Source: Aphrocallistes beatrix
Taxonomy: Eukaryota; Porifera; Hexactinellida; Sceptrulophora; Aphrocallistidae
Direction of reading: 5' to 3'
DNA length: 64,000 bases
Assembly (NCBI GenBank): GCA_963281255.1
Contig: OY725492.1
Location: 3,711,104-3,775,103, forward strand
In this document: positions 25,276 through 61,682 of the stretch, piece after piece
How the letters are laid out: each line of letters opens with the position of its first letter
How positions within the stretch are numbered: the stretch's first letter is position 1
The notes under the pieces: generated by a model
Seen by the model: the letters and a program-made list of their open reading frames with translations, nothing else
What the model was told of the DNA's origin: nothing
Databases searched by the model: none
Made by a program: the position numbers and the translations under genes

Positions 25276-26427
25276 ATGGCTGTTAATGACTTGAAGTGTG
25301 CTCCTCCAAGTGTTCCAGAATCCAGAATCAAACAGCTTCACTCGTCAGAATTATTCACTCTCTCTCAATATCCAGAGAGAAAATTAATTTCAACATCAAA
25401 AGAACACCCATACCAGTTCTCAATACTCTCCTACAACATTTTAGCAGATTGTTATGTTAACAAAACTGAATTTCCTTATTGTGAAGCTAGTAGTTTAGCA
25501 AACGAAGGAAGACATCAGAGTCTGTTGAAAGAGCTAGAATCAATCGGATACGGGAGTGTGTTATGTTTCCAAGAAGTGACGGAGAAGTATTACACATCTC
25601 GATTACGCCCTTCTCTCAACGAGCTGGGATACGATGGAGTGTTCCGAGAGAAAATAGTGGAGAAATCTTCCAACCCAGAAGACGGCCTGGCTACTTTCTA
25701 TCTGAGGGAGAAATGCAGTTTGGTGGCTATCGAACACGTAACACTAAACGAACTAATGATCTCAGCATGGGAGAAACTGTTTGGTAACAAGCATTTATAT
25801 GAGACCTGCTACAGAGACACGTTGGCTTTATTTACAGTCTTCCTTATAGACAATAGGCTAGTTGCATTTGGAAATGTTCATGTAGCTTGGGACTTAGATC
25901 ATCCAGACGTACAAACTCTACAGGGGTGTCTAGTTCTCACAAAACTAGTTGAATTTGCGAAATTTCACAAGTGTGACAGTTACATTTTATGTGGCGATTT
26001 TAATATTGAACCCACAGCTGACTCGCTGTATGCTATGTTTTCTGGCAATGCTATTAGTGCGGAGATGATTGCGAAATTTCTAAGTTCAGATATTCTAATA
26101 CCGGTGAAACAGTCTAAAATCGCTCTATTCGCGAATCAATCAGAGATGGTTCCTTATTTCAGAGTGTTCGAGAAGTTCTACACAATTCCGGAACCTGTCA
26201 AGAGTGCTTATATGACAATCCAAGGAAAGGAACCAGAATTCACTAACTACGAGGGAGATTTCTACGGATGTCTTGACTACATATTCTACAGTGATGGAGT
26301 GCTGCCTGTCAGTGTACTAGCAATGCCAGAAGAGAAAGATCTCAAATCCGAGGTTGCCCTCCCTAACACTGTCATGTCTTCTGACCATCTATCCATCAAG
26401 GCTGAGTTCCGATTTGAGAGCAGGTGA
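25276..26427 (+). CDS. CCR4/Nocturnin/Angel-type exonuclease, copy 3
   Basis: Intact 383-residue paralogue with no intron. It has the same motifs as copy 2: SYNILAD, CFQEVTEKYY, CGDFNI, DYIFYS and SSDHLSI. The region before the CGDFN motif reads NVHVAWDLDHPDVQTLQ, nearer the canonical family form than the NVHIHWH of copies 1 and 2. The 5' 300 bp and the last 400 bp are nearly identical to copy 2, while the middle (about 25640-26030) is clearly diverged. That mosaic fits patchy gene conversion. The 5' flank carries a hAT MITE about 175 bp before the ATG that copy 2 lacks, which could alter expression. Confidence 0.85.
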   Translation: MAVNDLKCAPPSVPESRIKQLHSSELFTLSQYPERKLISTSKEHPYQFSILSYNILADCYVNKTEFPYCEASSLANEGRHQSLLKELESIGYGSVLCFQEVTEKYYTSRLRPSLNELGYDGVFREKIVEKSSNPEDGLATFYLREKCSLVAIEHVTLNELMISAWEKLFGNKHLYETCYRDTLALFTVFLIDNRLVAFGNVHVAWDLDHPDVQTLQGCLVLTKLVEFAKFHKCDSYILCGDFNIEPTADSLYAMFSGNAISAEMIAKFLSSDILIPVKQSKIALFANQSEMVPYFRVFEKFYTIPEPVKSAYMTIQGKEPEFTNYEGDFYGCLDYIFYSDGVLPVSVLAMPEEKDLKSEVALPNTVMSSDHLSIKAEFRFESR

Positions 26428-35721: not shown

Positions 35722-36505
35722 ATGTTTAACATCTGCACCCATTACAAAGAAGAATGTCTTGGTCTGTCAACTCCTCCATTGGGCGTTCGGGATTGCTGGA
35801 ATTCAACCTGGCTAGTTTGTGTAATACAAAGAGAATATTCTACTTACACTTCTTTATGCATCTTCAATGATTATCCTCCCAATCCCTCTCTACCTAGTTC
35901 AAGTCATATCGATCGTACCCATTGTGAAGCGAAATTCTTTGAATATTGGGAAAAATCACCTCATAAGATATTCCCTGACTTCCCATTGGATGGGATCGAT
36001 AAGAAGGGTATTGATCTAGTGTGGTACATGCTAAGACCTCCTTGTGATGATTGCACAGAAATAATTATAGAAAGACGAGCTTTGTATAAGAAATTGACTA
36101 TAAAAATCCCACACATGGCTGACAAAGATGGTATCTATAATTCCATCGAAAGAGTTAGAAAACTAATCCAAAATAAGATTGAAATAAAGGCAATGCCGGT
36201 TGGTCAATATGAATACTATACTAGTGGTCGTCAGGGCCACAAATTGCCTCAATTGCGTGATACATATTCTCCAGGTAATTAATTAAATTATTAGAATATT
36301 TATTTATGCTGCTGATTTCTTAAACATTATATTTGTAGGGGTGATGAAGGCACTCCAAGAACAATTATATAGAATTGTACAAGAAAATAGCCAGAAACCG
36401 AAAAAAATTCCCCGTATCAGAATACCATTGAAGAGGAAGAATAGCCTCGTAACAAAAATATACTCAAAGAATACAATATTGAGTAAAAAGAGAAAGTTTT
36501 GGTAG
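35722..36505 (+). CDS. AID/APOBEC-like cytidine deaminase 1
   Basis: Predicted zinc-dependent C-to-U deaminase on single-stranded nucleic acid. It has two exons, 35722-36274 and 36339-36505 (intron gtaatt...tag, 64 bp), giving 239 residues. The core has an NSTWLVCVIQREYS strand, the zinc motif H67-C-E69, a fixed 37-residue spacer, then PC108-x2-C111 within DLVWYMLRPPCDDC. The variant HCE replaces the usual HAE, but the catalytic Glu is kept. The AID-like strand before the YYTSGRQGHKLP region is weaker here than in the sister genes (KKLTIKIPHMAD in place of LTILTAS). Exon 2 adds a basic tail with KRKNS and KKRKFW, likely nuclear-localising. No signal peptide, so it belongs with classical intracellular family members. 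First gene of the cluster. Confidence 0.83.
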
Positions 36506-36858
36506 ATCAAAAGAACCTGACTAAACTCATTACTCATACTTCCTTCAACATGTTAAATTAATTTTTTACTTGAATATCACTTTATGACTATCACTTTATG
36601 CTCTACTATTATTATTATTATTATTATTGATATTACTTTATTTTAAAAATACGTACGTAGATGATTACTTAGACTAAGTTGTTTTAAACTTTTCATTGTT
36701 TAAAATCGTGATTTACATTCAGACCAGTCGAATATACGGTCCTGAATGAGGTTTGACTCTACTAATATGAGTAGTTGAAATAAAATTTAAGAGTTTATTT
36801 GTTCTTTAAACAATCCACGATTCCACATGTAGGTATAATTTATGTATAACAGCATCAG
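36506..36858. other. Intergenic between deaminases 1 and 2
   Basis: Contains an ATT microsatellite at about 36607-36630. The last ~60 bp belongs to the duplicated block shared with the region before 37462. Confidence 0.4.
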
Positions 36859-37275
36859 ATGAGTAGCAGACACATTCGCGCATGTTGTCAGCTAAATCCT
36901 GACCTCGGTATTCGAGATACGTATAACTCCACCTGGATAATCTGCAGGATACAAAAGGAGTTCTCCTCTTACTTGTCTCTCTGCATATTCAACGAGTATG
37001 AAAATGATAAAGCCGGGGCTTATCACGTTGAAGGAAAATTCCTCGATTTTTGGGAGAATGAACCGAAGAAAATATTCCCAGACCTAACAACGAATGCAAT
37101 TGATAGGAATGCCTTTGACTTGATCTGGTACATGCCACGTTCTCCATGCCACGAGTGTACGAAGCTCATAATCAAGAATCGCAATCTGTTCAAAAGCCTG
37201 ACAATCTTAACTGCATCTGTCTATCAACTGTCAGAAGAAGATGAGACTTTTGCACAGAAATTGTGGTCTGAGTAG
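36859..37275 (+). pseudogene. AID/APOBEC-like deaminase 2, 3'-truncated duplicate
   Basis: Nearly identical to deaminase 3 over the first ~134 codons, displaced by 603 bp, with identity beginning upstream of the ATG. It keeps H56-V-E58 and PCHEC, so the zinc site is complete. After residue 131 the duplicate ends: cttttgcaca continues into unrelated codons (QKLWSE) and a stop at 37275, losing the C-terminal helices and tail. It could still make a 138-residue core, but AID/APOBEC folds need the lost helices, so it is called a pseudogene. The C-to-H difference in PC(Y/H)EC is one of few substitutions, indicating a recent event. Confidence 0.75.
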
Positions 37276-37461
37276 TGAGTGGCTGTTCGATTTCTTTGAT
37301 TGTTGGCAATCATATAACGTATACAGTTGAAGCCAACGGTTATCGTTCAAGTAAGCTCACTGTGCTAGATTCACTTGGTATCACGGCGCATTTGTAGGAT
37401 TTTGTCTCTCGCTGTATATAACAATCCAAATGTAGGTACAATTTATGTATAACATCATCAA

Positions 37462-38322
37462 ATGAGTAGCAGACACATTCGCGCGTGTTGTCAGCTAAAT
37501 CCTGACCTCGGTATTCGAGATACGTATAACTCCACCTGGATAATCTGCAGAATACAAAAGGAGTTCTCCTCTTACTTGTCTCTCTGCATATTCAACGAGT
37601 ATGAAAATGATAAAGCCGGGGCTTATCACGTTGAAGGAAAATTCCTCGATTTTTGGGAGAATGAACCGAAGAAAATATTCCCAGACCTAACAACGAATGC
37701 AATTGATAGGAATGCCTTTGACTTGATCTGGTACATGCCACGTTCTCCATGCTACGAGTGTACGAAGCTCATAATCAAGAATCGTAATCTGTTCAAAAGC
37801 CTGACAATCTTAACCGCATCTGTCTATCAACTGTCAGAAGAAGATGAGACTTTTGCACACAGAAGAATTGAAATGTTGAGAGACAAGGATATAATGGTAG
37901 AGCCCATGTCTCTTGAAGAGTACGAGTACTTTACTCAAGGCCGTGTGGGCCATCAGCTACCTGCCAAGGATAACATTGACCCTGAGGAAGACTTTGAGGA
38001 TCATGAATTGCCTATTGCGTCTCGAGATGAGAATTTCATGTTTCTCCCTATGGCTAATATTAGGAAGAATTGGCAGGAAACTTATTCTAGAGGATCCAGG
38101 GGGGCAGAATCCTATGCAGAAAGTGCTTCTTGGGCAGGGAAGAGGAGAATGATTCCTAAGAAATCTGATAGCTCTCGTGGGATGGGTTGGTATAACTCAG
38201 GGTATCGTGGGACAGGCCGGTATAACTCAGGGTATCGTGGGACAGGCCGGTATAACTCAGGGTATCGTGGAACGGGCCGGTATAACTCAGGGTATGGCAG
38301 AAATCGTTATAGACCTTATTAA
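37462..38322 (+). CDS. AID/APOBEC-like cytidine deaminase 3 with Gly/Arg/Tyr-rich tail
   Basis: 286 residues, one exon. The core has NSTWIICRIQKEFSSYLSL, H56-V-E58, the 37-residue spacer, DLIWYMPRSPCYEC (C97, C100), then KSLTILTASVYQ. The last resembles the LTIFTARLYF strand of vertebrate AID. The IEMLRDKDIMVEPMSLEEYE segment matches the AID helix-strand that follows. The tail is unusual: a 30-bp tandem repeat at about 38189-38295 encodes four copies of a GTGRYNSGYR-like decamer. Such RG/Y-rich sequence is typical of RNA-binding, phase-separating proteins. No other deaminase in the cluster has it. The target nucleic acid is unknown. Confidence 0.87.
   Translation: MSSRHIRACCQLNPDLGIRDTYNSTWIICRIQKEFSSYLSLCIFNEYENDKAGAYHVEGKFLDFWENEPKKIFPDLTTNAIDRNAFDLIWYMPRSPCYECTKLIIKNRNLFKSLTILTASVYQLSEEDETFAHRRIEMLRDKDIMVEPMSLEEYEYFTQGRVGHQLPAKDNIDPEEDFEDHELPIASRDENFMFLPMANIRKNWQETYSRGSRGAESYAESASWAGKRRMIPKKSDSSRGMGWYNSGYRGTGRYNSGYRGTGRYNSGYRGTGRYNSGYGRNRYRPY
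38189..38296 (+). repeat. Coding 30-bp minisatellite in deaminase 3
   Basis: Three full copies and one partial copy of ggtataactcagggtatcgt plus gggacaggcc, in frame, near identical. This suggests recent expansion and a length-variable C-terminus. Confidence 0.9.
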
Positions 38323-38714
38323 CTTATTTATCTTTGGGATTCATTATTTATTCTACTGCAACAGTAACATACTGACTTTATTGTAATAGTATTTCACTTC
38401 AATATGAATTGTTCATTCATTCATTATGCATAATACAATTCATTAGACCAAGGGTCGGCAACCTTTTTAGTATTCCCAGCATTATTACTATATGCAAAAT
38501 CTAGTGTATATGAGTTTAATTACATATCTATGTATATTTTTAAACTTATTCCAAAGGTTAAATTTGTAAACCTGTGCTACTTGATGTTACTTGCACCAGT
38601 TACCAGGGCCCTGAACTTTGGGAATCAATGACGGGATTAAAAACTAACTCGTTCTAGTTTTATTTACAATGCTGTTAAGCTAATTTTTTTTTCAATTTAT
38701 TGTTTATAAGTGAA

Positions 38715-40213
38715 ATGAGTCAGATCAGTGAAGACACGAATAGTTTGAGCAGTTCAATTCTCAACCCTGGATTGAGAAGACGTAACTATAAATCAACTTG
38801 GATGTTTTGCATAATACAGAGAAAGTATTCTGCTCACATTTCATTGCCCATTTTGAATGGAGATGATTCCAATGAGAATACCAAAGATATTCACGCTGAA
38901 GCCAAGTTCTTTCAATATTGGAGAACTAATCGTAATAAAATATTTCCTGATCTCCCACAGAATAAAAAGAACGCTACACATTTTGATCTTGTTTGGTATA
39001 TGCTGAGATTTCCATGCGCTGAATGTACATCTTTAATACTAACCAGTAAACACATGTTTAATAGCTTGACTATTAAATCCTCATCAGGGAGTAAAGATAT
39101 AGATAATACGCTTAAGATTCTACATCAAAATGGTGTCAAGCTGGAACCTATGTCTCAAACTGCCTATTACTATTTTACCAAGCAACGTCAATCCCATAAA
39201 TTACCTTCACTGCCTTATCCTTATAATTTACGTAAGGGTGAATTATCCAGTGTTACATATTTTACTTGTTGATCCAATTCCAAATTTTAACCACCGCCGT
39301 CTCAGCGTAGACTTTTAAAAATTCTAATTAGCATTGTTTATGAGTTGCGTACAGATTATTAATTCAACTTGTAGCATTATGAATTATTTGTTTCTAATAT
39401 AAGGTTTAGAAGTATACCATTATTTTTTTATGTACTATCTCCAAACTTTTAAACTATTGCTATATCTCAAAAATACAGTAATTTTATTTTTCTTTATATA
39501 AGTGGTATCAATGATCAACAAGTAATTTATTATATTTTCTTCATATTAATATGCAAAATAATATGTGATATTATCTACATACCTTCTCAAGGTTCAATAA
39601 GGATCATAAAAAGCCAAATTGAAGAAGTTGTACAAGGAAAGTTAAAAACATATGATACCTTTTTAAGATCTGAACTGTTTCTTCTAACCCAGCCTATGAA
39701 GAAAGCGAGATATTTTGCTTTCAACAGAGTTCAAAATCGAAAAATACTATACTATAAACAAAAATTATATCAAGAAAGTGACAAAAAGCAGGTACGATGT
39801 GACAAGTTTATACAATTTATAAATCTATTTCGATGTATTTACTTGTTATTTATATTTATAAAGCGCCCTTGCATAGCACGGCTAGCGAACACTTCGTGTC
39901 CGCAGATTCGCCATGCGGTGCATGGAGTTATCAAAGAATTTAGAAGCTTATTTATATAAAATGCATTGATAAAAACTGTTTTAGTTGTATAGATTCAACT
40001 GACTAAATCTTGAAGAGTCAAAATATTTAAATGATCAACCCAAAGAGAGTCAATTTTATATTATATTTGTGACTATTTGAATTCTACTATATTCTGCAGA
40101 TACAACTGATACAATCAAACGGAAAGTTTGCTAAAGACAAGACAAAGCGAAAAAGGAACTGGAAGTCCTTCAAAGGAAAGATCGAAAAGGATAGTATCGA
40201 AGATAATTCTTAA
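38715..40213 (+). CDS. AID/APOBEC-like cytidine deaminase 4, three exons
   Basis: Exons 38715-39231, 39592-39791 and 40100-40213 with consensus splice sites (C|gtaagg, ctcaag|G, CAG|gtacga, tgcag|A). They join in frame to 276 residues ending at TAA 40211. The start is the ATG at 38715. The core has KSTWMFCIIQRKYSAHISL, H60-A-E62, the 37-residue spacer, DLVWYMLRFPCAEC, and a strand NSLTIKSSS that departs from the usual TAS. The two downstream exons encode an Arg/Lys-rich tail (MKKARYF, KDKTKRKRNWKSFKGK) suited to nucleic-acid binding or nuclear entry. Intron 2 contains a degraded Helitron-like GC-rich terminus (39860-39930). Confidence 0.82.
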
Positions 40214-40748
40214 GAAGATACTTGCTTAACTAATTAGTTTGCTATTTTTTTCTCAATACTTCCTTTATTACTTATTATCTGCTTTTACATCCCATGTTTA
40301 TATAATTGTGTCTATGAACACTCTATAATATATTATCTTATTACGTATTAACTCAATCTAAATTATATGAATCTAAGGTGCACTTGCGTATCATTGGTGG
40401 ATTGCAGTGTTGGTGTTTTTAAATTCTGCAAATTCGTTAATAATTTCGCTTATGACCTGTCTATATGTTCGGGTACAAATTTGATAACTTCACCTCAAGT
40501 TCTTAATCTCAGTTATCTATCTGCAAAAGCTGAGATTAAGAATACGATATTATTGAAAATATTTACGTACTATGTTTACTTTTTTTTCTCAAAACATTTC
40601 TCTAATATTTTCGATGTTCCCATCCAACAAGGTCCATATAATTTCTTATAAATTAAAGAGAGCTCACAAACACAGGGAATCATGTATAATTTACGTAATA
40701 TAGGAGGGGCATAGGAAGGAAGGCGTGGCCCCCTCTGACACTTTTATC
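40214..40748. other. Intergenic with a deaminase-tail relic
   Basis: At 40477-40560 a frame reads LITSPQVLNLSYLSAKAEIK, which aligns with LEISPPVPNPSHLSVKAEIE in the tail of deaminase 6. No core domain is left. The remainder is featureless. Confidence 0.55.
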
Positions 40749-42151
40749 CAGGGGCGGATACAGGGTTCAGACTCAGGGGGGGCCAAAAGCGAGCGTAGCG
40801 AGCGCAAGTAATGGGGTTCTGGGGGGGAACCCCCCGGAAAATTTTTTTAACTTAAGGTGGTCAAATATCAATGTACATCAATTCTTATCAAATCTCATAC
40901 GGGATTTGAATTTCCTTCCTGTAACCTGATTACCACTTTGTGCTTCGCGCCAATTCATCACAAGCGTTTGGGAGTATATTTAGGTTTAGTTAACATAGTG
41001 ATAATGATACAATGTATGGCATTCTAATGAAAAATAATTCTGTACGGATTTTCCAAAAGTTCTCGTCCCAAATCTGTATCTCAAATGAGAGTGAAAATAG
41101 GATATTTTCAATTTGTTCATTGTATTCCTTAAGGGATCAGCTTCCAATTGTATATTGGTTTATATTAAGAGGACAATTATTGTGGTTCCTATATTAGATT
41201 TTTATGCATCGGTTTAGGGTAGTGTCAAAAAGTTGGAATCTTCCCATTGAAAATGGCTTAAAACTAAATTTGGAGAATAAAAGTTGTGAAAATCGTAGAA
41301 TAAGGTCATTAAAAGGTGAAATAATTAAGAACCAATGTGAAAAAGTAATCGGGAGGTGTTCAATTGTATTGCTCGTGTTGAAAAAATATCATGCCACTTT
41401 TAGTGGATTTCTTGTCAATTTTCGCCACTCAAAAAGTGGGACAAAAATGGTAATAAACCACTTCAAAACATAGTATTCCTCAGCCTCAAACTATAATACC
41501 TCAGAGAATTCAATCTATATGTTAGTTGATGCATAGAATTGGATGGCGGGATCAGTTTTTATCTAAATCTGCTCAGGACTGAAATATATCAAAGAGAACC
41601 CCAAAGATCACGTTCAAAGGCAGTGCCCTAAACCGATGTACAAAAATCTAATATAGGAACCACAATAATTGTCCTTTTAAAATAAACCCATATATAAATT
41701 GCCGATCCCCTAAGGAATACAATGGACAAATTGAAAATATCATATTTTCACTCTCATTTGAGATACAGATTTGGGACGAGAACTTTTAGAATGCCCTATG
41801 TAGATGCCTATGAAATAGTAGCATACTCAAGTTTTCACCTCAATCGAATCTAAATGGAAACTCGAAGCTAATGTTGGAGTATTCGTCTCAAATAAAGGAA
41901 TAATTGTTACACTTATGGATTAATGTAAATCAGATCTGATGAAATCATTAAACACGGAATAATTGAATTGAAGAAAGAAGTATCTTAGTAGATATCATTG
42001 GAATGGAGAAAATAAACTCATATAATTGAGGGCTAAAGTTCACAAATCTGGGGGGCTAGGCCCAAATAGCTCCCCCGTAGATCAATTCGTAAAATTTTCA
42101 GGGGGGGCCATGGCCCCCCCGGACCCCCCCCTCCCCCTGTATCCGCCCCTG
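40749..42151. mobile_element. hAT non-autonomous element, 1403 bp, with long foldback
   Basis: Ends CAGGGGCGGATACAGGG and CCCTGTATCCGCCCCTG, with the exact 8-bp duplication CTTTTATC at 40741-40748 and 42152-42159. Inside, 41012-41225 and 41622-41800 are an inverted repeat of about 180-200 bp (for example tctgtatctcaaatgagagt and its complement). There is no transposase frame. The ~90-codon frame at 41204 has no domain. Confidence 0.92.
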
Positions 42152-42373
42152 CTTTTATCCTACACGTATTTCTATCATATTATTTCATTTCATATAACTA
42201 ATATAATTGTATTGAAACGTATATCTTCATATTTATTGTGGCTGCTGTATCAATGGATGGTTAGCTTTATTCGGACATTCAAGGGGAGCGAAACTTTTAC
42301 TTTTTACTTGTACCCCCTAGAAACTCCCTGTTAAATATATTGCTCCTCTCTTTTTAAGGATCTCACGTTATTT

Positions 42374-43081
42374 ATGGCTAATCGAAGGCACAGAATGCAT
42401 TGTTTACCATGCCGTAAACTTAATAATCCAGATATGGCTGTTCGCGACCATTATAATTCTACTTGGATAGTATGCAGAATAAAGAATATAAGTTCTTATT
42501 TAACATCACGATGTATCTTGAATGATTTCGGCGATACCGACTCTATTCATGCCGAAGAGAAATTATTTTCTCTTTTGAAGAAAGAACCAAAGACAATATT
42601 TCCAAAACTTCGAACAAATGTGATCCTTAGAAATCATTATGATGCAATTTGGTATATGTCACGCTCTCCTTGCTATCCGTGTGTGAAATTAATATTAAAA
42701 AATGTTCCTATTTTCAAAAGCTTGACTATTTTGACTGCCGGTGTATACGAACATCAAGATGATAAAGAAGAATGGCCATATACTAGAATTAAAATTTTAA
42801 GGGATAATAAAGTGAAGGTAGAACCTATGTCTCTTGAAGCATATGAACATTTGACCAAAGGCCATAAAAATCATCCACTACCTGTGGATGATAATTTTGA
42901 CCCTGAGGGAGCATTTAATGAACATGGATTATCCATTGCACCTCGAAAAGATCTCATCTTAATGCATAGGGCTGGTTTTGGGAATAATTGCCAAGCAACG
43001 TCTTCACGACCTGGATTGAGAAAAAGTGGCAATAAAGGTAAAATAAATACGATAAAGACTGATTATTATGAACTCGCTTAA
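42374..43081 (+). CDS. AID/APOBEC-like cytidine deaminase 5
   Basis: 235 residues, one exon. The core has NSTWIVCRIKNISSYLTSR, H59-A-E61, the 37-residue spacer, DAIWYMSRSPCYPC (C100, C103) and KSLTILTAGVYEH, followed by IKILRDNKVKVEPMSLEAYE. Most similar in layout to deaminase 3 (shared DPEGAFNEHGLSIAPRKD region against DPEEDFEDHELPIASRDE), but its tail is short and basic, without the Gly/Arg/Tyr repeat. A hAT element ends 222 bp upstream of the ATG. Confidence 0.86.
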   Translation: MANRRHRMHCLPCRKLNNPDMAVRDHYNSTWIVCRIKNISSYLTSRCILNDFGDTDSIHAEEKLFSLLKKEPKTIFPKLRTNVILRNHYDAIWYMSRSPCYPCVKLILKNVPIFKSLTILTAGVYEHQDDKEEWPYTRIKILRDNKVKVEPMSLEAYEHLTKGHKNHPLPVDDNFDPEGAFNEHGLSIAPRKDLILMHRAGFGNNCQATSSRPGLRKSGNKGKINTIKTDYYELA

Positions 43082-44267
43082 TTTATACAAACATTCGATT
43101 GTTATGAGTTAAGTTAAGGTACGAGTATATCCTTCTTATTTTAGGATTATTTACTGTAAACGCATTATACTTTTAATAGAACAAAAAATTGTTAAGTGAA
43201 TGGCCTAATGTCCGATTGGGCTACTTTTTATTGTACTGTGCTTCCTATGCTATCATATTGAAAGATATAAATGTATAGGAAGCTCACACTAAGAATATAT
43301 ATATATATATACATACGTATATCCTTTTAGAATTACTCCTTTTTGCTTTTCTGGTCTGTTTTATTTATGTCTAACATTTTAACTAATATTATCAGATTAG
43401 TATTCAGCATTATGTAATCGCTTTGTTACACTTGTAGATAAATTCCATGAGAAAATCAAGCAAAGAGCAAAACACAAGCATATTATCCTACATCATCAAC
43501 CGTAATGAGCAAATTTCGAAAATTCAAGTGCACAATTCAATGAATTCATATATAACATTTTACATATAATAAATTTTGTGAAATGATTATTGATTATGAT
43601 GACGATTGAGAAAATAAAAATTTTGCCTACTAAAATACGTATTGTAGGTAGATCATAACATAGGAAATATTCCGTAATATATGTATGATTAATATGACTG
43701 AGTATTCATATAATGAAAGTGCCATCGATTTAGCCAGGTCTGTTCCACGTCACTTCAAATCACGTCATATCGTCATGTCCCTAAAAGGAAGATGACACCT
43801 GCAGTGAAGTTCTGTGTGAAATTTCGAAAATTGAATTGAAGTTTGATAGAATCCATTGTTCTAATTTTTTTGATGTTTAATGATAACGTCATTACAGACT
43901 GATGAGTTATCATTTTTTGTTGATAGCTGCATCATATGTGAGATAAATTAATATACCGTACACATTCTAAAATTTCAGCCTTCTATCAACTAAAATGACG
44001 GAGTTGTTTTTTTAACATGAATAATGCCAACTTGAGTCATGATCAAAGCGGGCGCAGCGTTGAAGTCAAGGGAAATGGCGGGACGCAATAGTACAACTTC
44101 TACATACTTGTTGTAATGTCAGCACATCCTATGAGGAGAGGACTACTTTAGTGTACGTAATAAAGTGACAAAAAATTTAACCCGGACCAACTTTGGCGGG
44201 GGCGGACCAGTTTTGGCCTGCCAAAATTGGTCCCCCCGGACCAATTTATTCGTGATAGGCCCTAAGA
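43082..44267. other. Intergenic with a family A fragment on the minus strand
   Basis: 43838-44013 is a reverse-orientation fragment of Helitron-like family A (gcatcatatgtgagataaat, atttcagccttctatca). A small hairpin ggaccagttttggc/gccaaaattggtcc is at 44204-44233. No gene was seen. Confidence 0.5.
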
Positions 44268-44447
44268 GGTGACTTTGTCCCACAATAGCAATTTTAATAA
44301 AATATACTCAAACTTATGAATCAATGTAATCACAATTGATAACATGTTGAATGAAACTCTCAATATATCCTATACAGCTATTTAAACCGCAAGATTTCTA
44401 AGTTTGAGTATATTTTATTAAAATTGCTATTGTGGGCCAAAGTCACC
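44268..44447. repeat. 49-bp inverted repeat with 82-bp loop
   Basis: Arms at 44268-44316 and 44399-44447 (ggtgactttgtcccacaata and its near-exact complement). Probably a foldback MITE; no target duplication was identified. Confidence 0.8.
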
Positions 44448-44732
44448 CCAGTTTACGGTACTGATTCATCCAATTATAATATTTTTTCGCAACTGGCTGG
44501 TGGGCCACCTCTGAGCAACCTGTGGGCCACCAGTTTGACACGCCTGCCATACACTATCCCTGACAACATTTCACATAAGTTGGAAGAGAACTCGATTAAA
44601 AGGATTATAATAAACTTTAGAGCGAGGATTTTGATTCTCTTATCTTTCTTCCTTTCGAAACTATCTTTAGCACAGTTTAACTTTCTGTATGAATCTCTCA
44701 GTCTGTTAATGAAGTATCATTTATACGGCTTA

Positions 44733-44824
44733 CTTATATATCGGCGAGATTTACTTATATACCGGCGAATACTTAAATATCGGCGAGATTTGCTTATATA
44801 CCGGCGGCCGATATTTAAGTAAGC
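44733..44824. repeat. Small 21-bp minisatellite with inverted ends
   Basis: Units of the form acttatatatcggcgagatt. The block starts cggcttacttatatatcggc and closes with the complementary gccgatatttaagtaagccg. Confidence 0.8.
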
Positions 44825-45300
44825 CGCATTTTTATTGATTTTAAGATGAAAATCCACATCTTTTGTTGAATATACTACGATGTCATTTTTTAACAGAAAA
44901 TTTGTCTTCCGAAATTGGAACTTTCTTGGACTTTTGATATGTTTTCAAGGATGCCTTTGACTATCTTTACTGATATTGTCTTGTTTAGATATTTTTCGGG
45001 TTTTCGTCGATTACTCCTTGACTGACTGTATTATCAACGAGCGAATTTGAACTCCTCTGTACTTGCAATCCTCGCAAGTTTTAGCATTTCAATGAACCAA
45101 AGCATAGCATCGAATTTGTAGTATCCAAGTATCAGTATGATCAACCTGTACATATTTCATAGTTCTCGAACAGATGTTTCGCAAATTTTAGCAACGTACA
45201 GTAATGAAGCAACCACAGAATCTAAAACTAATGCATATATAATTACTATTCTTGTTTGGTGACACTCGTTATATGCTACATATGGAGATTATATTTTAGC

Positions 45301-45578
45301 CGTTACTTATATACCGGCGAATACTTATATATCGGCGAGATTTACTTATATATCGGCGAGATTTACTTATATATCGGCGAGATTTACTTATATATCGGCG
45401 AGATTTACTTATATATCGGCGAATACTTATATATCGGCGAGATTTACTTATATATCGGCGAGATTTACTTATATACCGGCGAATGCTTATATATCGGCGA
45501 GATTTACTTATATATCGGCGAATACTTATATATCGGCTAGCCGATAGTATCGGCGGCCGATATATAAGTAAGCCGTAG
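45301..45578. repeat. Larger 18/21-bp minisatellite, same family
   Basis: About 11 units of acttatatatcggcga plus optional gattt, alternating 21-bp and 18-bp lengths, ending ggccgatatataagtaagcc as the inverse of the start. The repeated LYIGEIY reading frame across it is an artefact of the repeat. Confidence 0.9.
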
Positions 45579-45790
45579 TTTTATTAGGTGCTATTAGGCA
45601 TACTATAGATTAGATCACTTAGAAACGCAATCCAGCGCTTATTCTACTCCAACCACAATAGTTCTTAGCTAGAGACTAATTAGACTAATCCATAGACTCA
45701 AACGAGTCACTAGTTAACCAATTTAAATCGTTATTTTTCCCTTGTGTTATTGTGTCCTCCTACTGACCTACATAAAGTCCTACTTTGTTA

Positions 45791-46448
45791 TCCTTACTAT
45801 TAAAACTCGATTATTGTTTGTGTATGTGTGTATATATATATATATATATATCTGTAACGAATTGATCGAAGAAACTGTCAGCCCCAGAAAGCTGATTTTT
45901 GGCATGTGGGAGTCTTTTGGCTATGGCTCCAGTAAGTTCTGAGCTCAGACGAAAATGTCGACTCATCATGGAATTATGACGTCAGTCACATTTTTAAAAG
46001 TTAAGCAAGCAGTTATTCGAGCATAACACAGCCATTATAGGAGATAGAAGGCTGAGATTTTAGTTAACCTTCGTCTGGCTACGTCTCAAAAGTAAAATAG
46101 AGAAAACCCCAATTCATTTTCGCTTTCAATGTACTTTCATTTTCACTTTCAACATTCCTAGCCAACCGGGGGTTAAAACCCCCGGTTGGCTAGGAATGTT
46201 GAAAGTGAAAATGTGTATACTAACACGTCACACATATGATGCAACTATCATCAAAAAATGATGACTCATCGCTTTGCTATGACGTCATCATTACTCATCA
46301 AAATTTTATAAATTGACAAATTTGGTGTTTTCTCGAGTGATATCTCCCTTATAATTAACCAATGTCACCTACAGGCGACCGAAGGGAGCCTCTGGCGGAC
46401 ACAAAGTGTCCGCCAGCCGCGCAGCGCAAGCAAGCGAAGCGCGCTTGT
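45791..46448 (+). mobile_element. Helitron-like family A, complete, with hairpin insertion
   Basis: Runs from TCCTTACTATTAAAACTCG to gcgcgcttgt. The body is collinear with the copy at 6440-11473 except for an insertion at about 46066-46215 that carries a perfect hairpin. Confidence 0.65.
46138..46213. repeat. Perfect 37-bp hairpin, 2-nt loop
   Basis: 46138-46174 and 46177-46213 are exact reverse complements around AA (centre ccgggggttaaaacccccgg). Confidence 0.95.
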
Positions 46449-47066
46449 CACTAATAATTTAGGTACCTCTTTTGAAAAATCACGAAGAATCATTCATAAT
46501 TTTCCTAAGTTTATATAAGTTACCCAATTGCATTAGAATGGAAAAGTGAAGAAATATTTCACCATTTAACATTATTTCTGTATATTAACATAGATACTAT
46601 TTTCTATTTATTCTATTTATAACTCACCTCGCAACATGACAGACAGTCACAGTTTAGATTGTTTCAATCTTAATAATCCCGGATTGAATGATCGGGACGC
46701 ATTTCATTCGACCTGGATAATCTGCATAATACAACGGGAACACTCAAGCTACACATCTTTATGCATTTTCAATGATTACGAGGAGGAGTATATTCATGCA
46801 GAAGTGAAGTTCTTCGATTACTGGAGAAATGACCCTAAGAAGATATTCCCTGGCCTCGCAAGTAATGACATCGACAAGAAAGAATTTGATCTAGTCTGGT
46901 ACGTGCAAAGATCTCCTTGTGATGATTGCGTAAATGTTGTAATAGAGAATAAAGCAATGTACAAATCTCTAGCTATAATGACTGCATCTGTATATAAATG
47001 TCAGAGCAGTGAACTGATGGAAGTCACAAGAAACAGAATCACCAAATTAAGGTTAAATAGTATTAA

Positions 47067-47901
47067 GGCCAGTCGCTCCCTAAGATAGAAAAATTTCAAA
47101 ACTCGAATTAAACCTTAGAAATAATGAATATGTATGTGTACTCCACGATTCTAAAGTGATAAGCTGCTAAAACAAACTAAAATTTCACAAATGGCTGGCC
47201 TAGGGTCAGAATTTTCCATTATAATCCATTCTAGTCTATTCTATTCTATAAAGTCCCAGACGTTTCGTGGGATAGTGTGGGTAGTATTCGAGTGTTAGAA
47301 AGGAACTAATAATTTTAAACCATGACATATGGCACAGATAAGGAGTAACGTGGCTGTTTTTAAAATAAATCGTTTAAAATATTATTTGCTTAATTGAATT
47401 TCGCTGAAAAATTACAGAATTTCTGAAAACCTGGCTAGTCGGGGCCCTGAGCATGAATAGTATGCCTAGAGTCAATAGTAAAGACTTGACTCCCTAGCTA
47501 TAGTTATCACGAGGAACAATTGCACTATATTTTATAGAGAAACCATTTGATAGAAATGCATATTGTAAGTGATGATTCTCTGGTCTAATGCAGCGGTTTT
47601 CGACTTTTTTGGTTGTGGACCCCCTATAGTGATTTTCTATATTCTGTAGACCCCCTCCTATTAACCGTAATACAAAATTTATAAACCTTCCTCTGATATC
47701 TTCTATGGATCACTAAGGGGTCCATGGACCCCAGGTTGGGAACCACTGCAATAACTTGAGGCCAGGTGGTAATAATTTTAGCACAAAATCCAAACATGAT
47801 GGAATTCAACAATCCTTGTATCAAAGTTCCATAACATTGAAAGAATTCAATTATAACAAGAAAACAGTTATAATCTAGGGAGTTAGTACGAGCGACTGAC
47901 C
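47067..47901. mobile_element. TTAA-type non-autonomous transposon in deaminase 6
   Basis: Ends GGCCAGTCGCTC and GAGCGACTGACC (one mismatch as inverted repeats), with TTAA at 47063-47066 and 47902-47905. Removing 839 bp restores the alignment to sister genes. piggyBac-like by target choice. It contains an older hAT-like MITE. Confidence 0.82.
47591..47748. mobile_element. Old hAT-like MITE
   Basis: Ends CAGCGGTTTTCGAC and GGTTGGGAACCACTG, with ggaccccc/ggggtcc subterminal repeats. No clear target duplication. Related to 53525-53629. Confidence 0.6.
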
Positions 47902-48293
47902 TTAAGGTAGAACCTATATCTCCTTTTTTTTAGTATGACCATTTCACGAAAAATCGTGGTCATGACTTACCAAGGTTTCCTTTTATCTCTCCAAAAAAAG
48001 ATTTTCTCTATAATGATTTGGAAATTTCACCTCCAGTTCCTAATCCCAGTCATTTATCTGTGAAAGCTGAGATTGAAAATCAAGTAATTGAAGAAATAGA
48101 AGGTACGTCTGAAACAGTGGATCATTCGAGGTACGTGAAAGATGTATCTGAGCCGCAACCTCTACTCACTTCTCTACCCGCTTCCCCTTCCAAGCGAACT
48201 CATCATCGACGTGAGCCGTCACCTGTGCAGAAAAAGACAAAGCTCAAATATTCTGATGATGAACTTCCTGATTATCCAGATGATGAATACTGA

Positions 48294-48699
48294 AATTTTG
48301 TAGTTTAATAATTTGGATTTAGTCTATTGAGGTTATTGATATTTTTAGCAGTCCAAGACAGCTGAGGGATTAAATGTTTGAGATATGGAAATCTAGTTAG
48401 ATGTATATTTGTATGTTATAAAATTATTTCTTGCCCCCATTCCGTCTTTGAGTCCATCGCTAGAATATTTGATATGAACTAATTTACTAGCCGAAATGAT
48501 CGTTAAAATATCTTCTAATTTGTTAGAATTCTATTAACATTATTTCTCCCTCCTCAGTGCCTCCCAATTTTTGAATATATTCTGCAAGGTTATTCTGGAG
48601 ATTGATTATTGTATTGTTGATTACGATACGGCTAGAAAAAATGAAAATTTTGCCTACTAAATTACATGTATTGTTGAAGTATATCATGACGGTAGAAAC
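48294..48699. other. Intergenic
   Basis: No gene. The last part leads into the family B element. Confidence 0.35.
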
Positions 48700-49285
48700 C
48701 TTCCGAATTGATTGAAGAATTGACAAGTCTAGATATGAAAATTGGCTTGTAGGTGTCAAATGATGAATCTACGATTAAGTCCGAATATCTAAGCGAAATT
48801 TTCACACCTCTGCAAACAAAATGAGAAACAAATTTTCACCCCTTTCATTAAATTATATATGACTTCACTCTCACAATAGAAATCATTGTACGACACTACA
48901 AGACTGTCATTGTTATTAATACTTGTACTTCAAAGCCACTGCTTATGTTAGATATCTTAATTATATTATAGTGTATAGCAATAAAAAAGGTTATATGCAT
49001 ATTTTCACACTTTATAGACAATTTTTCACGCCATTTGACAAATTTAGAAAAATAGAGACTAGCTTCCAACGGTTGGTTGACATGAGGTTTTTAGTGGTGT
49101 AGATTTTGAATATTATATTTTCAGATCAATATGATAAATTATGTGTTTACTTTTGTTTACAATATTTATATAAAGTAAACAATTTCCAAAATAGACTAGA
49201 TTGAGTAACTCCAGGCGTCCGCAGGTCGACTCTGCGGACACACAGTGTCCCCAATCCCCGCACCGCAAGCAAGCGAAGCTCTTGT
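48700..49285 (+). mobile_element. Helitron-like family B, compact full copy
   Basis: Body starts gaattgattgaagaattgac and proceeds through ggtgtcaaatgatgaatcta, aatcattgtacgacact and a single ~140-bp unit to the GC-rich end (gcgtccgcaggtcgactctg ... gcaagcaagcg). It shows the unexpanded architecture of the copies flanking the satellite. Confidence 0.6.
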
Positions 49286-49427
49286 ATACTATAATATCTC
49301 CACACTTTATTGATTAATATGACTGAGTATCATGTTAATTAATGGAAGTCCGCCCTACTATAATTTAGAATTTTATTCTTAGTTGTACAGTGATATAATA
49401 TCTTCACATTTGTGAATAACATGATCA

Positions 49428-50330
49428 ATGAGTGACACGGATAGTTCTACAAGTTCCACTCTCAATCCTCATATAAGAAAACGAGGCTACAGATCTACTT
49501 GGGTGGTCTGCAAGATATCAAGAAAATACTCAAATTATTTATCCTATTCGATATTTAATAAAGATTATTTTGATAAGAAAAAGGAAGAGGTCAGGAGTAT
49601 CCATGCTGAAGAAATTTTTTTCAAATATTGGAAGAGAAAACCTAAAAAAATTTTTCCTGATCTCCCAATGAATGATATAATTCGAGGAACTTCCAACCTT
49701 GAGTGGCACATGCTGAGACCACCATGCAGAAACTGTACAGAATTAATAATAAAAAATAGAAGTTTTTACAAAAACTTGACCATTTTTACTGCGTCTTGCT
49801 TTAGAAGTGAAGGAACAGATGATGATCTAGATAACCCACTCGACAGAATTTTAGAATTGAAGAAAAATGGTGTTATGCTAAAAGCTATGTCGAGTTATGA
49901 GTACTTCCAATAAACGAAACATCGTTTAGGCCATAAGCTACCCGGCTTACCTTTCTATTATTCCTCAGGTAAGATTTTAGAGAATAATTTTTGAATTACT
50001 TAAGAATCGGGTTTTTAGAAAGGGGAGAAAAATTCAAGCTATTCTGAAAAAGTGTAGAAAAATAATGTTAGTACCGTTCTTATAGTGACATGCCAGTATT
50101 GCCTTATTAAATTAGAGAGTTTACTTTGATCTTGTTCTATAGCTCATATATTTGAAATTAAAACTCAAATTGATCAGGTGGAGTGCGACACACAGAAATT
50201 TTCTGTAGAATCTGCAGCAGCTCCTGATCCTAAGATTCCTAAAATGGACAAAACAAAGCGAAGATCTTCTGAAGATTCTTGTGAGGAGAGTGTCAAAAAG
50301 AAGTTACTTGAAGATGAGGACAGGAAATGA
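49428..50330 (+). pseudogene. AID/APOBEC-like deaminase 7, premature stop
   Basis: Exon 1 (49428-49968) encodes RSTWVVCKISRKYSNYLSY, H59-A-E61, the 37-residue spacer, WHMLRPPCRNC and KNLTIFTASCFR. A TAA at 49911-49913 ends the open frame at 161 residues, inside a two-codon excess relative to sister genes (YEYF-Q-stop-TKHRLGHKLP). Beyond it the frame is clean, splices at 49968|gtaag to an exon at 50143-50330, and encodes a Lys-rich tail (MDKTKRRSSEDS, VKKKLLEDEDRK) ending at TGA. Either a recent pseudogene, or a truncated protein that keeps the catalytic core but loses the tail. W-Y before the PC motif is W-H here. Confidence 0.75.
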
Positions 50331-51106
50331 TTAATATTTGATCTTAATAAGATTAGCTTTCGACTACCAGTATAAGTTATTTATTTTGTCCATCGTTTTT
50401 TGTTGCTCGGCCTCTGTAAACAATGTTTTATTATTAGTAGTAATTCCATTACGAAATAATCGGGGGTTTTGCCGTCAGTTATTTTGTCTCTTAGGCCATG
50501 AAATCAAAACCGACTTCCCCAATTATGTATTTATTTATTGATATGGCGATAGTAGTTAGGCTCCACTCTTAACTACGTAACTGCATTGGACAGAGAATTC
50601 TACTTATATTATTCATCAAATGTCACTGGATGGATATCTGGAGGCAGGGGCGCCAAACTTTGGGAATCATTAGTCAACTGATGGGGACTCAGACCAAAGG
50701 GATTGAGTCAACCATTTTGAATCGAGAAGGGTGGAAGTAGTTTAGCACTTTTAATTGTGCTTCCTATACAATACTAAAACTAAGAGGATGCCACTATTGA
50801 AATGAGTGATGATGACAAGGCAGTGTGTAATTTTCTCTCTCCAATACAAAACCTAATTTACAACCAATCTGGATTCATGTGACAAAGTTTGGGGTGAAAA
50901 GGAATATCCCTCACAGGAAGGAGAGTAATGTCCCGTGCTTGTGCTCCACCATTCTGGAATGATAACACAATGCTGAGTCATCATCCCAGCAACCAATGGA
51001 GTCATGTTCCTATCCCGTCCCTAATGAGCAAAGTAATTACCCTCTCTCCCTGTTTTTAGATTGGGTATAATATTACTATAGAATACGTATCTTATTTTAT
51101 CATCAA
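50331..51106. other. Intergenic between deaminases 7 and 8
   Basis: No gene. A one-ended sequence near 50645 (caggggcgccaaactttggg) resembles a hAT terminus, and 38602 (cagggccctgaactttggg) is similar. Confidence 0.35.
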
Positions 51107-51937
51107 ATGATCAGCACACATTGTTCAGAATGTTCCATATTCAGTAAACCTGAATTGGGGGTTCGGAAGATTTCTAACTCCACCTGGCTGATCTGTATAA
51201 TACAACGCGAATACTCTTCTCACACTTCCTTGTGTATTTTCAATGACTTCAGTACAGTGCAGACCCATGCAGAGGAGAAATTCTTCAATTATTGGAGTAG
51301 AAGACCCAAACGAATATTCCCAGATCTTGAAAGTGATGAGATAGAGAGGGGGAAGTGCGATCTAGTCTGGTACACTCTCAGATCTCCTTGTGATGTCTGC
51401 ACGAGGCTAATTCAAATCAATCAAAGTTTGTACAGAACTCTAACCATACTAACTGCTTCTATCTATCAACAAGAAAGTGAAACGAAAAATACTCAAGCAC
51501 GCAACCGAATCATGAAATTGAGGTCGTTGAAAGGTGTGAAGGTAGAACCTATGTCTCCTAAAGAAATGAATCACTTTACTAGAGGGCGTTTAGGGCACAA
51601 ATTATTTGCGTACGATAAATGTCCTGAGCAGTCGTTTAGAGATTTTGATCTGAGCATATCATATCGAGTTTCTAGTCTCTGTCATCTCCCTCCTACAGCC
51701 GCGATTAAGGACCAATTCGCTGAAGACATAGAAGGGGCAGAGTTTGAAACTTTCGATCATTTGACCTTTGAAAAGCCGAAATATTTCAGTCTCTCTACCC
51801 CTGATGTAGCTGAGGAAGAACTTGTATGTACTCCTCTCCCTTCTTCTCCTTCCAAGCGAATTCATTCCCGAAGTGAGATACCTAGCATCATGCAGAAGAA
51901 GAAGAAGGAGAAGTCCACTGGTGATCTCAAAGATTAA
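51107..51937 (+). CDS. AID/APOBEC-like cytidine deaminase 8
   Basis: 276 residues, one exon, intact. The core has NSTWLICIIQREYSSHTSL, H54-A-E56, 37 residues, then P94-C95-x2-C98 in DLVWYTLRSPCDVC and YRTLTILTASIYQ, matching the AID strand LTIFTARLYF. The IMKLRSLKGVKVEPMSPKEM segment matches the AID helix and strand that follow. A ~100-residue tail carries acidic stretches and then SPSKRIHSRSE and KKKKEKS, a likely nuclear-localisation cluster. It shares this tail with deaminase 6. Best single representative of the family in this window. Confidence 0.88.
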   Translation: MISTHCSECSIFSKPELGVRKISNSTWLICIIQREYSSHTSLCIFNDFSTVQTHAEEKFFNYWSRRPKRIFPDLESDEIERGKCDLVWYTLRSPCDVCTRLIQINQSLYRTLTILTASIYQQESETKNTQARNRIMKLRSLKGVKVEPMSPKEMNHFTRGRLGHKLFAYDKCPEQSFRDFDLSISYRVSSLCHLPPTAAIKDQFAEDIEGAEFETFDHLTFEKPKYFSLSTPDVAEEELVCTPLPSSPSKRIHSRSEIPSIMQKKKKEKSTGDLKD

Positions 51938-57507: not shown

Positions 57508-59517
57508 GAAACGAGGACATCTTTATCCAATGTGTTGAAAACCGCAGGTCTTTCTAAGATTGAAATATATTTAACTGAGTTAGGAGTAGAGGAGCTTGAT
57601 GATCTAACATTTTTAGATGAAGACTCAATTCGTGTTTTAAAACTGAATTTTATTCAAAAGAAGAAGCTTCTATCATTGATTGGATCTCTTAAAGGAGAGT
57701 CAGGGGCCTCTAAAACTATCTCAAGTTCAAACAAAACTCATTCTCCTATTCCCTCTGGTATTAGTACCTTGCCTCCACCCAAAGCTCTGACTATTCCACA
57801 CCCTCAACTCAAACCTCACACCCCAGTTCAAAATGATTCAGTTCGCTTTCAGAAGCAATGCAAGATTGTAAACAATCAGAATAAGTTAAAAATTTACAAA
57901 CCTATGATGAAAACATTTAGCATCAATAAAAATGTGGGTTTTCGCAAGAAGGTGTTTGGAAAACAAAATCATTATCCGGAGAAGGTCATTCTGGTTGTAG
58001 GTGCGACCGGATCTGGTAAGACAACTCTGATTAATGGAATTATTAATTATCTTTTTTCAGTCAAGTTTAAAGATCCGTTCAGATACAAATTGATGCTAGA
58101 TTCTGAGGATGGTTCAGGCTATCAATCAGAAAGCCAGACTAAATGTATCACTGCGTACACCCTCTACCATCAAGAGGGATTCCCGCTGCCTTTCACTCTG
58201 ACTATCATTGACACTCCAGGCTTTGGGGATACTCAAGGAATAAGGAGAGATATGGAGATTACTCAGCAAATAAAAAATTTCTTTTCTACAACAGGTCACG
58301 ACGGAATTGATCATATCGACGTCATAGGTTTCGTTGCTCAGTCTTGTCTCTCAAGGCTGACTCCAACTCAGCGATATATTTTTGATGCAATCCTCTCACT
58401 ATTTGGCAGAGATGTCGAAGAAAATATTTTTCTTTTACTTACTTTTGCTGACGGTAAAAAGCCAGAAGCTATTGCTGCGATTCAACAGGCGAAAATTCCT
58501 TGTAATGTATGGTTTAAGTTTAACAACTCTGTGTTATTTTCTGAGAGAGAATCTTCTTCTCATGGATACGGATCAGATGATGATGATTTCGATGAAATGT
58601 TCTGGAAAATGGGCACAAAGAGTTACAGAGATTTTCTAATTAAACTATCCACAGTTACTCCTAAATCATTGTATCTCACTCAAACTATTTTAGATACAAG
58701 AACAAAAATGGAGATAACAATCCAAGGGCTACAAGAAGAGATTCAGTTAGGACTCAATGAACTTGAAAGGTTGGGAATGGAAGTTGACATTGTTCTGACG
58801 CATAAATCTATTATTGAAAAAAATAAGAACTTCACATACACTGTGGAGGAAGATGTTATCAATCATGATAAGATTCCTCACGGCACATACATTACCAACT
58901 GTTTGGAATGTAATACAACTTGTCACTATCCTTGTGGCATTCCTAATAACAACGACAAAGAGGGGTGTGCTGCCATGAGTAGTGGAAAATGTGTAAAATG
59001 TCCTAGGAATTGTCATTGGTCTAAACATGTTAATAATGACTTCCAAATCATGACTGTCCGTAAACAGGTGACCAAAGATTCAATGGATTTGAAAAAGAGG
59101 TATCAACAAGCTCAAGGAGATTTCGTTTCAGCTGAATCCATTGTAAATGGAATTATAAATGAAATAGAAGCAAGGCAGTTTAAAATAGTTGGAATGACGA
59201 ACGAAGTTCGGAAACTCTTACAAAAGCTTGATGAGATAGCACTAAAACCTAATCCATTGTCTACTCTAGACTATATCGATATACTGATTGGTTCAGAAGA
59301 GAGGAATGGTAGGCCTGGGTTTCATGGACGTATCAAACAACTACAAGAAATAAGGAGGGAGGTTGAATTTATTGAGTTTGCTATCAAAAAAGGAGAAAAT
59401 CCATTTGAAAAGTATGAAAGGAAGATTGCAGAAGATAGAAAATCCAAGAGGGGAAGAGTTTGGGCTACAGTAGGAAGTTACCTCGAAAATATCAATTTCT
59501 TCAAAAGAATTGTATAA
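57508..59517 (+). CDS. SAM-like/AIG1-like GTPase with cysteine-rich module
   Basis: Open frame with no in-frame ATG before the first domain. A 3' splice site (gatag|GAAACG) at 57507 suggests an upstream exon supplies the start. From 57532: a SAM-like helical domain (residues 1-52, IYLTELGVEELDDLTFLDED), a Pro/Ser linker, then a P-loop GTPase with GATGSGKTTL (about 157-166) and switch/G3 DTPGFGDTQGIRRD (about 226), as in AIG1/GIMAP and septin-related proteins. Next is a cysteine/histidine cluster (about 462-500, CLECNTTCHYPC ... CVKCPRNCHW), probably zinc binding, and a coiled coil. The GIMAP family regulates lymphocyte survival in vertebrates; function here is not known. It ends at TAA 59517 (full stop region intact). 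Confidence 0.78.
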   Translation, partial: ETRTSLSNVLKTAGLSKIEIYLTELGVEELDDLTFLDEDSIRVLKLNFIQKKKLLSLIGSLKGESGASKTISSSNKTHSPIPSGISTLPPPKALTIPHPQLKPHTPVQNDSVRFQKQCKIVNNQNKLKIYKPMMKTFSINKNVGFRKKVFGKQNHYPEKVILVVGATGSGKTTLINGIINYLFSVKFKDPFRYKLMLDSEDGSGYQSESQTKCITAYTLYHQEGFPLPFTLTIIDTPGFGDTQGIRRDMEITQQIKNFFSTTGHDGIDHIDVIGFVAQSCLSRLTPTQRYIFDAILSLFGRDVEENIFLLLTFADGKKPEAIAAIQQAKIPCNVWFKFNNSVLFSERESSSHGYGSDDDDFDEMFWKMGTKSYRDFLIKLSTVTPKSLYLTQTILDTRTKMEITIQGLQEEIQLGLNELERLGMEVDIVLTHKSIIEKNKNFTYTVEEDVINHDKIPHGTYITNCLECNTTCHYPCGIPNNNDKEGCAAMSSGKCVKCPRNCHWSKHVNNDFQIMTVRKQVTKDSMDLKKRYQQAQGDFVSAESIVNGIINEIEARQFKIVGMTNEVRKLLQKLDEIALKPNPLSTLDYIDILIGSEERNGRPGFHGRIKQLQEIRREVEFIEFAIKKGENPFEKYERKIAEDRKSKRGRVWATVGSYLENINFFKRIV

Positions 59518-59915: not shown

Positions 59916-60825
59916 ACAAGCGCGCTTCGCTTGCTTGCGTTGCGCGGCTTGCGGACACCTCGTGTCCGCAGAGTCGCCCTGCGGGCGCCTGGAGACACTC
60001 AATCTAAACTATTTTTTTAATTTTTTTCCATTATATATATATTGTAAACAAAGGTCAACGAATAAATTTTCATATGGATCCGAAAATATGATATTCGAAA
60101 TCTACACTCCTGAAAACCCCATGTCAACCGTTGAAAGCAAGTTTCTAGCATATTTTTGAGATTTGTTTACATTATGTATCTATTGTAAACAAAAGTAAAC
60201 AAATTAATTATCAAACTTACTCGAAAATATTATATTCGAAATCTATACCTCTGAAAACCCCATGTCAACCGTTGGAAGTAAGTCCCTAGCCTATTTTGTA
60301 ATTTGTTTACTTTGTGTATCTATTGTAAACAAAAGTAAAAAAATTAAATATCAAACTTACTCGAAAATATTATTTTCGAAATCTACACCCCTGAAAACCC
60401 CATGTCAACCGTTGGAAGCAAATCTCTTAGTTTCTCGCTTAATTTTGTCACTTGTTTACTTTATGTATCGATTGTAAACAAAAGTAAACAAATAATTTAT
60501 CATATCGATCTGAAAATATGATATTCGAAATCTACACCCCTAAAAACCACATGTCAACCGTTGGAAGCTAGTTTCTCGCTTAATTTTGTCACTTGTTTAC
60601 TTTATGTATCGATTGTAAACAAAAGTGAACAAATAATTCATCATATAAATCTGAAAATATAATATTCGAAATCTACACCCCTAAAAACCACATGTCAACC
60701 GTAGGAAGCTAGTTTCGAGCATATTTTTCAAAATTTGTCAAATGGTGTGAAAATATGTATATAAAGGTGTGAAATATGAACATAATTTTTTATGCCATAC
60801 ACTATAATACATTATAATACATGCA
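59916..60825 (-). mobile_element. Helitron-like family B, reverse orientation, tandem units
   Basis: GC-rich terminus acaagcgcgcttcgcttgct followed by five to six ~140-bp units (gaaatctacacccctgaaaa, catgtcaaccgttggaagc). Same architecture as 22101-23434, inverted. Confidence 0.65.
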
Positions 60826-61519: not shown

Positions 61520-61682
61520 ACAAGCGCGCTTCGCTTGCTTGCGCTGCGCGGCTGGCGGACACTTTGTATCCGCCGGAGGCGCCCTTTGGGTGCCTAGGCT
61601 CACATTGATTAATTATAAGGTATATAACATCTCTAAATAAAAGGTCAGAACTTAGTGGAGCCATAGCCAAAAGACTCCCTAC
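61520..61682 (-). mobile_element. Helitron-like family A fragment, reverse
   Basis: GC-rich terminus and the sub-terminal cattgattaattataagg, then a jump to the 5' body segment (agtggagccatagccaaaag). An internal deletion derivative that abuts the Ginger remnant. Confidence 0.55.

Follow-up and report, generated by a model that had tools for sequence, protein, structure and literature searches.

Metazoan clades of the AID/APOBEC deaminase (AAD) family were reportedly shown by Krishnan et al. in 2018 to be marked by lineage-specific expansion and fast evolution. The locus analysed here, a tandem cluster of deaminase genes within a 64,000-nucleotide stretch (the window; C6:3711104-3775103, where C6 is contig OY725492.1 of a 100.5-Mb, 28-contig genome), resembles those clades in family, in lineage-specific expansion and in fast evolution. 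The genome is that of the glass sponge Aphrocallistes beatrix, in keeping with the invertebrate host proposed by an earlier reading of the letters alone (the sequence-only reading).

The part of Liu et al. (2018, PMC5956068) on which we draw already documents invertebrate AID/APOBEC genes, multigene families and inactive copies. The SpAIDL/LaAIDL genes described there are, like the sponge cluster, multigene and built on H-x-E/PCxxC, and we liken the cluster in particular to sea-urchin SpAIDL, where five of nine loci are inactive in the reference and alleles are numerous. The present system differs from SpAIDL/LaAIDL in its glass-sponge host, in having 8 + 9 loci in two clusters, and in its basic or RG-rich tails. 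With vertebrate APOBEC1/2/3 and AID the sponge proteins have the predicted fold and the zinc site in common, but their sequences are distant and the sponge genes are single-domain. Two reviews (PMC8201067, PMC11004436), in the sections available to us, name the secreted SNAD4 as the sponge AAD type and trace the earliest classical member, APOBEC4, to cnidarians; in contrast to SNAD4, the products considered here look non-secreted, and seven of the eight window loci score best with APOBEC_N or NAD1. Among the titles and abstract openings screened there was no glass-sponge AID/APOBEC report, no paper was found that combines APOBEC with Hexactinellida, and the main text of the genome paper for Aphrocallistes vastus (80 Mb; PMC10282587) contains neither 'deaminase' nor 'APOBEC'. 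The new part, if so, would be the non-secreted, APOBEC_N/NAD1-like sponge members.

We propose that the cluster probably arose when intracellular polynucleotide cytosine deaminases of AID/APOBEC-like type expanded in tandem in this lineage, most likely for innate defence.

The C6 loci and their assignment to the AID/APOBEC family

Eight deaminase loci (g1-g8), all on the plus strand, lie within positions 35722-51937 of the window. Five are open: g3, g5 and g8 as single exons, and g1 and g4 with a putative exon 2 after a GT-AG intron. The remaining three are broken, g2 by truncation and g6 and g7 by interruption, and the earlier count of eight deaminase genes thus stands for loci and fails for intact genes. 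All splices given below are putative and were read from the sequence.

35722..36274, plus strand: g1 exon 1, open (SNAD4 26.9 bits, APOBEC_N 26.5 bits; donor GT at 36275, by eye)
36339..36505, plus strand: g1 putative basic C-terminal exon 2, after a 64-nucleotide GT-AG intron
36859..37277, plus strand: g2, truncated partial copy of g3 (translation and sequence comparison with g3)
37462..38322, plus strand: g3, intact single-exon deaminase with an RG/GYR-repeat tail (APOBEC_N E 1e-12; tail repeat found)
38715..39231, plus strand: g4 exon 1, open, with an altered strand after the zinc motif and a short loop and helix
39592..39959, plus strand: g4 putative exon 2, 3' limit uncertain
42374..43081, plus strand: g5, intact single-exon deaminase with the best profile score (APOBEC_N E 3.9e-14)
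46636..47066, plus strand: 5' part of deaminase g6, interrupted (profile match)
47067..47901, no strand given: DNA element inserted in g6, flanked on each side by TTAA and bearing 12-bp terminal inverted repeats
47902..48293, plus strand: 3' part of g6, basic tail, in-frame TAG at 47931-47933 (open reading frame translation)
49428..49968, plus strand: g7 exon 1, in-frame TAA at 49911-49913 (open reading frame translation, profile match)
50143..50330, plus strand: g7 putative basic exon 2
51107..51937, plus strand: g8, intact single-exon deaminase with a basic Ser/Pro tail (profile, predicted structure, ENA match)

H-x-E, exactly 37 residues and P-C-x2-C follow one another on the same strand in all eight loci, just as the sequence-only reading had described. 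The strand after the zinc motif resembles LTILTASVY, by eye, in six (g2, g3, g5, g6, g7 and g8) and deviates in g1 (LTIKIPHMA) and g4 (LTIKSSSG), which agrees with the earlier 'usually'. The VEPMS strand claimed alongside it is patchier: by eye it is present in g3, g5 and g8 and, as LEPMS, in g4, while g1 has KAMPV and g7 KAMSS at that position, g6 has VEPIS only past the inserted element, and g2 has none. The tails of the products are basic or RG/GYR-rich.

Profile searches point the same way. With hmmscan, APOBEC_N exceeds its curated Pfam cut-off at all eight loci, g1 scoring lowest (26.5 bits) and g5 highest (53.4 bits), and it is the best model for five, NAD1 being best for two (g6, g8) and SNAD4 for one (g1); score margins between models are small. 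No deaminase class outside the AAD family rises above its cut-off at any of the eight loci, and PF00383 has no match there up to E 1. In the whole genome APOBEC_N has 13 matches, confined to two clusters, which rules out a chance motif. A profile of seven C6 loci (g2 left out) and the ENA protein P0001 found APOBEC3G at the top of the solved structures (E 8.9e-12), and below E 1 the sole entry outside AID/APOBEC was CDADC1 (E 0.6). The solved-structure search and the profile matches, on C6 and on the second cluster (on contig C15), together rule out a CDA, dCMP or ADAT identity; the best matches that the sequence-only reading regarded as fatal to its AID/APOBEC assignment, to CDA, dCMP, ADAR or tRNA deaminases, did not appear, and neither did its other refuting outcome, a predicted fold lacking the AID-type strand order.

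The predicted fold matches the AAD fold: against solved structures of vertebrate APOBEC1/2/3 and AID, the root-mean-square deviation is 2.9-4.0 over 137-152 residues at 15-22% identity (50 entries listed). In the predicted structure DSSP gives the order b1 b2 a1 b3 a2 b4 a3 b5 a4, which as an order alone is compatible with a helix between b4 and b5 and fits the arrangement anticipated earlier. Sequence entropy over 13 stretches (eight rows, g2 left out) is highest in loop 7 (1.93 bits), then in the helix that comes after that loop (1.72), and lowest in b4 (0.82); loop 7 contacts substrate in AID/APOBEC proteins. Profiles and predicted fold thus agree in supporting placement of the C6 loci in the AID/APOBEC family.

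Secreted or intracellular products

The two reviews' view that SNAD4 is the sponge type raises the alternative that the C6 genes are SNAD4 proteins whose signal peptides lie on unseen upstream exons and which act outside the cell. SNAD4 does exceed its Pfam cut-off at six of the eight loci, scoring 31.2-42.0 bits, and ranks first for g1, narrowly below cut-off there. Against this, APOBEC_N or NAD1 outscores it at the other seven, an H..C-type N-terminal motif begins, by eye, at the Met in six of eight, and each start Met is preceded by an in-frame stop at a distance of 1-14 codons. None of the eight N-termini has a strongly hydrophobic core in its first 40 residues, as judged by hydropathy only and without a positive control; the largest 10-residue Kyte-Doolittle (KD) mean, 1.77, falls in strand b1 of g6. 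The basic tails also fit SNAD4 poorly, and we regard this alternative as unlikely. Since the N-termini lack strong hydrophobicity and the upstream stops are close, the products look intracellular.

Intracellular AADs in a sponge would mean that the classical branch predates the point at which the two reviews put it, and that mutagenic innate immunity would exist in animals that have no lymphocytes and, in the case of glass sponges, are built of syncytial tissue. As the genome is small and assembled to chromosome scale, the editing target is open to direct test.

A second cluster and possible turnover between haplotypes

A divergent deaminase cluster of nine loci (against eight on C6) occupies C15. 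H-x-E/P-C-x2-C is kept in eight of the nine, m4 having R-T-E at its broken start. An AAD model gives the best profile for all nine, with PF00383 lower wherever it is listed, and only four (p1, p3, p4 and p5) pass an AAD cut-off. On the minus strand at C15:3638650-3649059, the C-termini of m1, m2 and m3 are strongly hydrophobic (KD mean 2.4-2.8 over 18 residues), which might reflect a tail anchor or a frame that runs on beyond a splice site. In a 17-row tree from which g2, m4 and P0003-P0008 were left out, eight of 14 inner branches are open, so the order within C6 is not resolved.

A search of 5.8 billion proteins matched eight ENA proteins. Five correspond to C15 genes, at 100% for m1, m2, p3 and p5 and 99.6% for m4. 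The other three match C6 less closely: P0002 shares 96.7% identity with g8, P0003 follows g1 exactly for 126 residues and then stops one residue later, and P0001 is 72.2% identical to g5, which is also its best match in the genome (73%). P0001-P0003 probably lie on one contig, because each is assigned a contig of 324,920 bases. From these comparisons we infer that the source of the ENA proteins is a different individual or haplotype of this species, in which the C6 array is more divergent than C15; alternatively, the divergence of P0001-P0003 may reflect paralogy or assembly error. The search returns cluster representatives, so missing C6 copies are uninformative.

Over 435 bp (36822-37256) g2 is 97.9% identical to the start of g3, and it stops within the domain. 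The g6 insertion measures 835 bp, its terminal inverted repeats agree by eye at 11 of 12 positions, and its inner ~170 bp lie behind 37 of 40 scored genome matches (597 candidates). The g7 TAA sits upstream of the putative g7 intron. The recent partial copy g2, the transposon-split g6, the nonsense g7 and the differences from the ENA proteins support local expansion and turnover of the cluster, as the sequence-only reading had suggested from the letters.

A broader scenario is possible, and we put it forward tentatively: non-secreted classical-type AID/APOBEC mutators may already have formed two or more clades, either ahead of the sponge lineage or inside it, and C6 may be a highly polymorphic defence locus. 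Pressure from parasites such as long terminal repeat (LTR) retroelements would then replace its genes and alleles from one haplotype to the next (identity is 72% at the g5 position, compared with 99.6-100% for the matched C15 genes).

Proposed function and the search for a target

Zinc-dependent C-to-U deamination is predicted from family membership. Each intact product would bind zinc through one His and two Cys, with the Glu as proton shuttle; the variable loops surrounding the site would hold a single strand of nucleic acid, in which C would be converted to U. The tails, basic or RG-rich, may contribute nucleic-acid binding or nuclear retention, and the duplicated, fast-diverging copies would then mutate foreign or mobile nucleic acid as a form of innate defence. 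The genome has one match to the uracil-DNA glycosylase (UDG) family (C8, 28.4 bits), so uracil excision is probably possible. By analogy, the published sea-urchin and brachiopod relatives point to immunity: in the part of that study used here they are gut-enriched, infection raises SpAIDL2, and some of them act as DNA deaminases in E. coli (PMC5956068).

Two other roles bear comparison with defence. Editing of host transcripts in the manner of APOBEC1 would suit the RG/GYR-rich tail of g3, which may resemble RNA-binding tails, but a conserved editing role sits badly with the turnover of copies and with how far they differ from the ENA proteins, and we consider it improbable. Diversification of a host receptor repertoire, somatic or germline, as by AID, draws on the same fold and motif, yet no target locus is known, none having been looked for; we give this role very little credence.

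Retroelements were sampled as 40 regions and 12 loci, drawn from the 150 that were scored among 713 RVT_1 candidates, and the sampling favours open frames, so that heavily edited copies would be hidden. The long interspersed nuclear element (LINE) tested encodes an endonuclease and a reverse transcriptase (RT). Raw mismatches over 561 pairs of its copies (7829 C/T against 4076 A/G) might suggest an editing footprint, which is explained by 573 C against 280 G sites. Runs of at least three like mismatches (228 C/T against 31 A/G) are unremarkable, because they fit the cube of the raw mismatch ratio. The most lopsided pairs mostly involve copy L061 (G/A up to 12:0), whose own count of 9 G>A and 14 C>T rules out its hypermutation.

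The Ty3/Gypsy-type elements gave a lean. L018, the one piece scanned, carries protease, RT, RNase H and integrase. On the coding strand of nine pieces in three groups of three (L018/L019/L021, L020/L026/L027 and L024/L025/L028), segregating sites number 43 for A/G and 22 for C/T. If the purine share is assumed to be 0.546, the one-sided p is 0.039; the share at invariant sites, 0.557, moves p slightly above 0.039, and this was one among several tests made. Pairwise, the A/G:C/T counts of the nine distinct pairs above 98% are 7:0, 2:0, 4:0, 7:3, 6:7, 7:6, 22:11, 23:11 and 6:5. The A/G excess fits deamination of minus-strand complementary DNA and is a weak hint of the target, a lead for seeking a footprint genome-wide.

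Several results weigh against the proposed explanation. Among the 34 LINE copies, the rate of private change per 1000 sites is 251 for C>T and 246 for G>A, with no strand bias, in a count that left out 733 columns without a clear majority and may include flanks. The Ty3/Gypsy-type lean is marginal, unpolarised in direction and uneven among groups (7:0, 10:8, 26:14). The aim at viruses or transposons put forward in the sequence-only reading is accordingly not borne out by the LINE and only marginally touched by the Ty3/Gypsy-type pieces. The ratio of nonsynonymous to synonymous substitution (dN/dS) for seven C15 pairs is below 1 (0.45-0.82 over the full alignment, 0.49-0.92 over the first 170 codons), and these pairs show no positive selection. 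Three of the eight C6 loci are broken, and part of the array may be decaying. That the cluster is mostly decaying, with little present function, gains something from these loci and from P0003, which suggests that g1 is shortened in the other assembly; all motif residues are nevertheless kept in the five open loci, and we think mostly decayed function highly unlikely.

Other features of the window and genome

Within the deaminase cluster, a 21-bp tandem repeat at 45303-45537 is open in several frames, so its open reading frames are not genes. Downstream of the cluster an open reading frame at 57508-59517 encodes an AIG1- or septin-like GTPase; AIG1-type GTPases are immune-linked elsewhere. Beyond it lie an integrase-like retroelement piece recognised by eye (61656-62330) and a Ulp1/C48 protease open reading frame (62723-63301).

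Three copies of an endonuclease/exonuclease/phosphatase-like gene lie upstream, at 4145-5107, 12449-13633 and 25270-26427; the latter two match PF03372, and the first has no Pfam match and looks frame-broken by eye. A 6.5-kb satellite array at 15606-22094 (96% matches; 147.5 copies of a 44-bp unit, itself a doubled 22-bp unit) overlaps an AT skew of -0.21, and a related unit of ~141 bp is arrayed at 14642-15159, 22345-23347, 23549-23972 and 60010-60728.

Contig C28 (17,996 bases), which is mitochondrial, points to a glass sponge when compared with published mitochondrial DNA. It encodes atp9 and reads TGA as Trp. Its cox1 contains AGA 16 times, in several cases where we take Ser to be conserved. 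By eye, the recognised large genes share one strand, the cox3 reading is divided between frames, and there is an overlap of nad2 with nad5. In the part of the published account used here (PMC2267718), the known glass sponges retain atp9 and translate AGR as Ser, a reading absent from demosponges, and A. vastus mitochondrial DNA has all its genes on one strand with a nad2/nad5 overlap.

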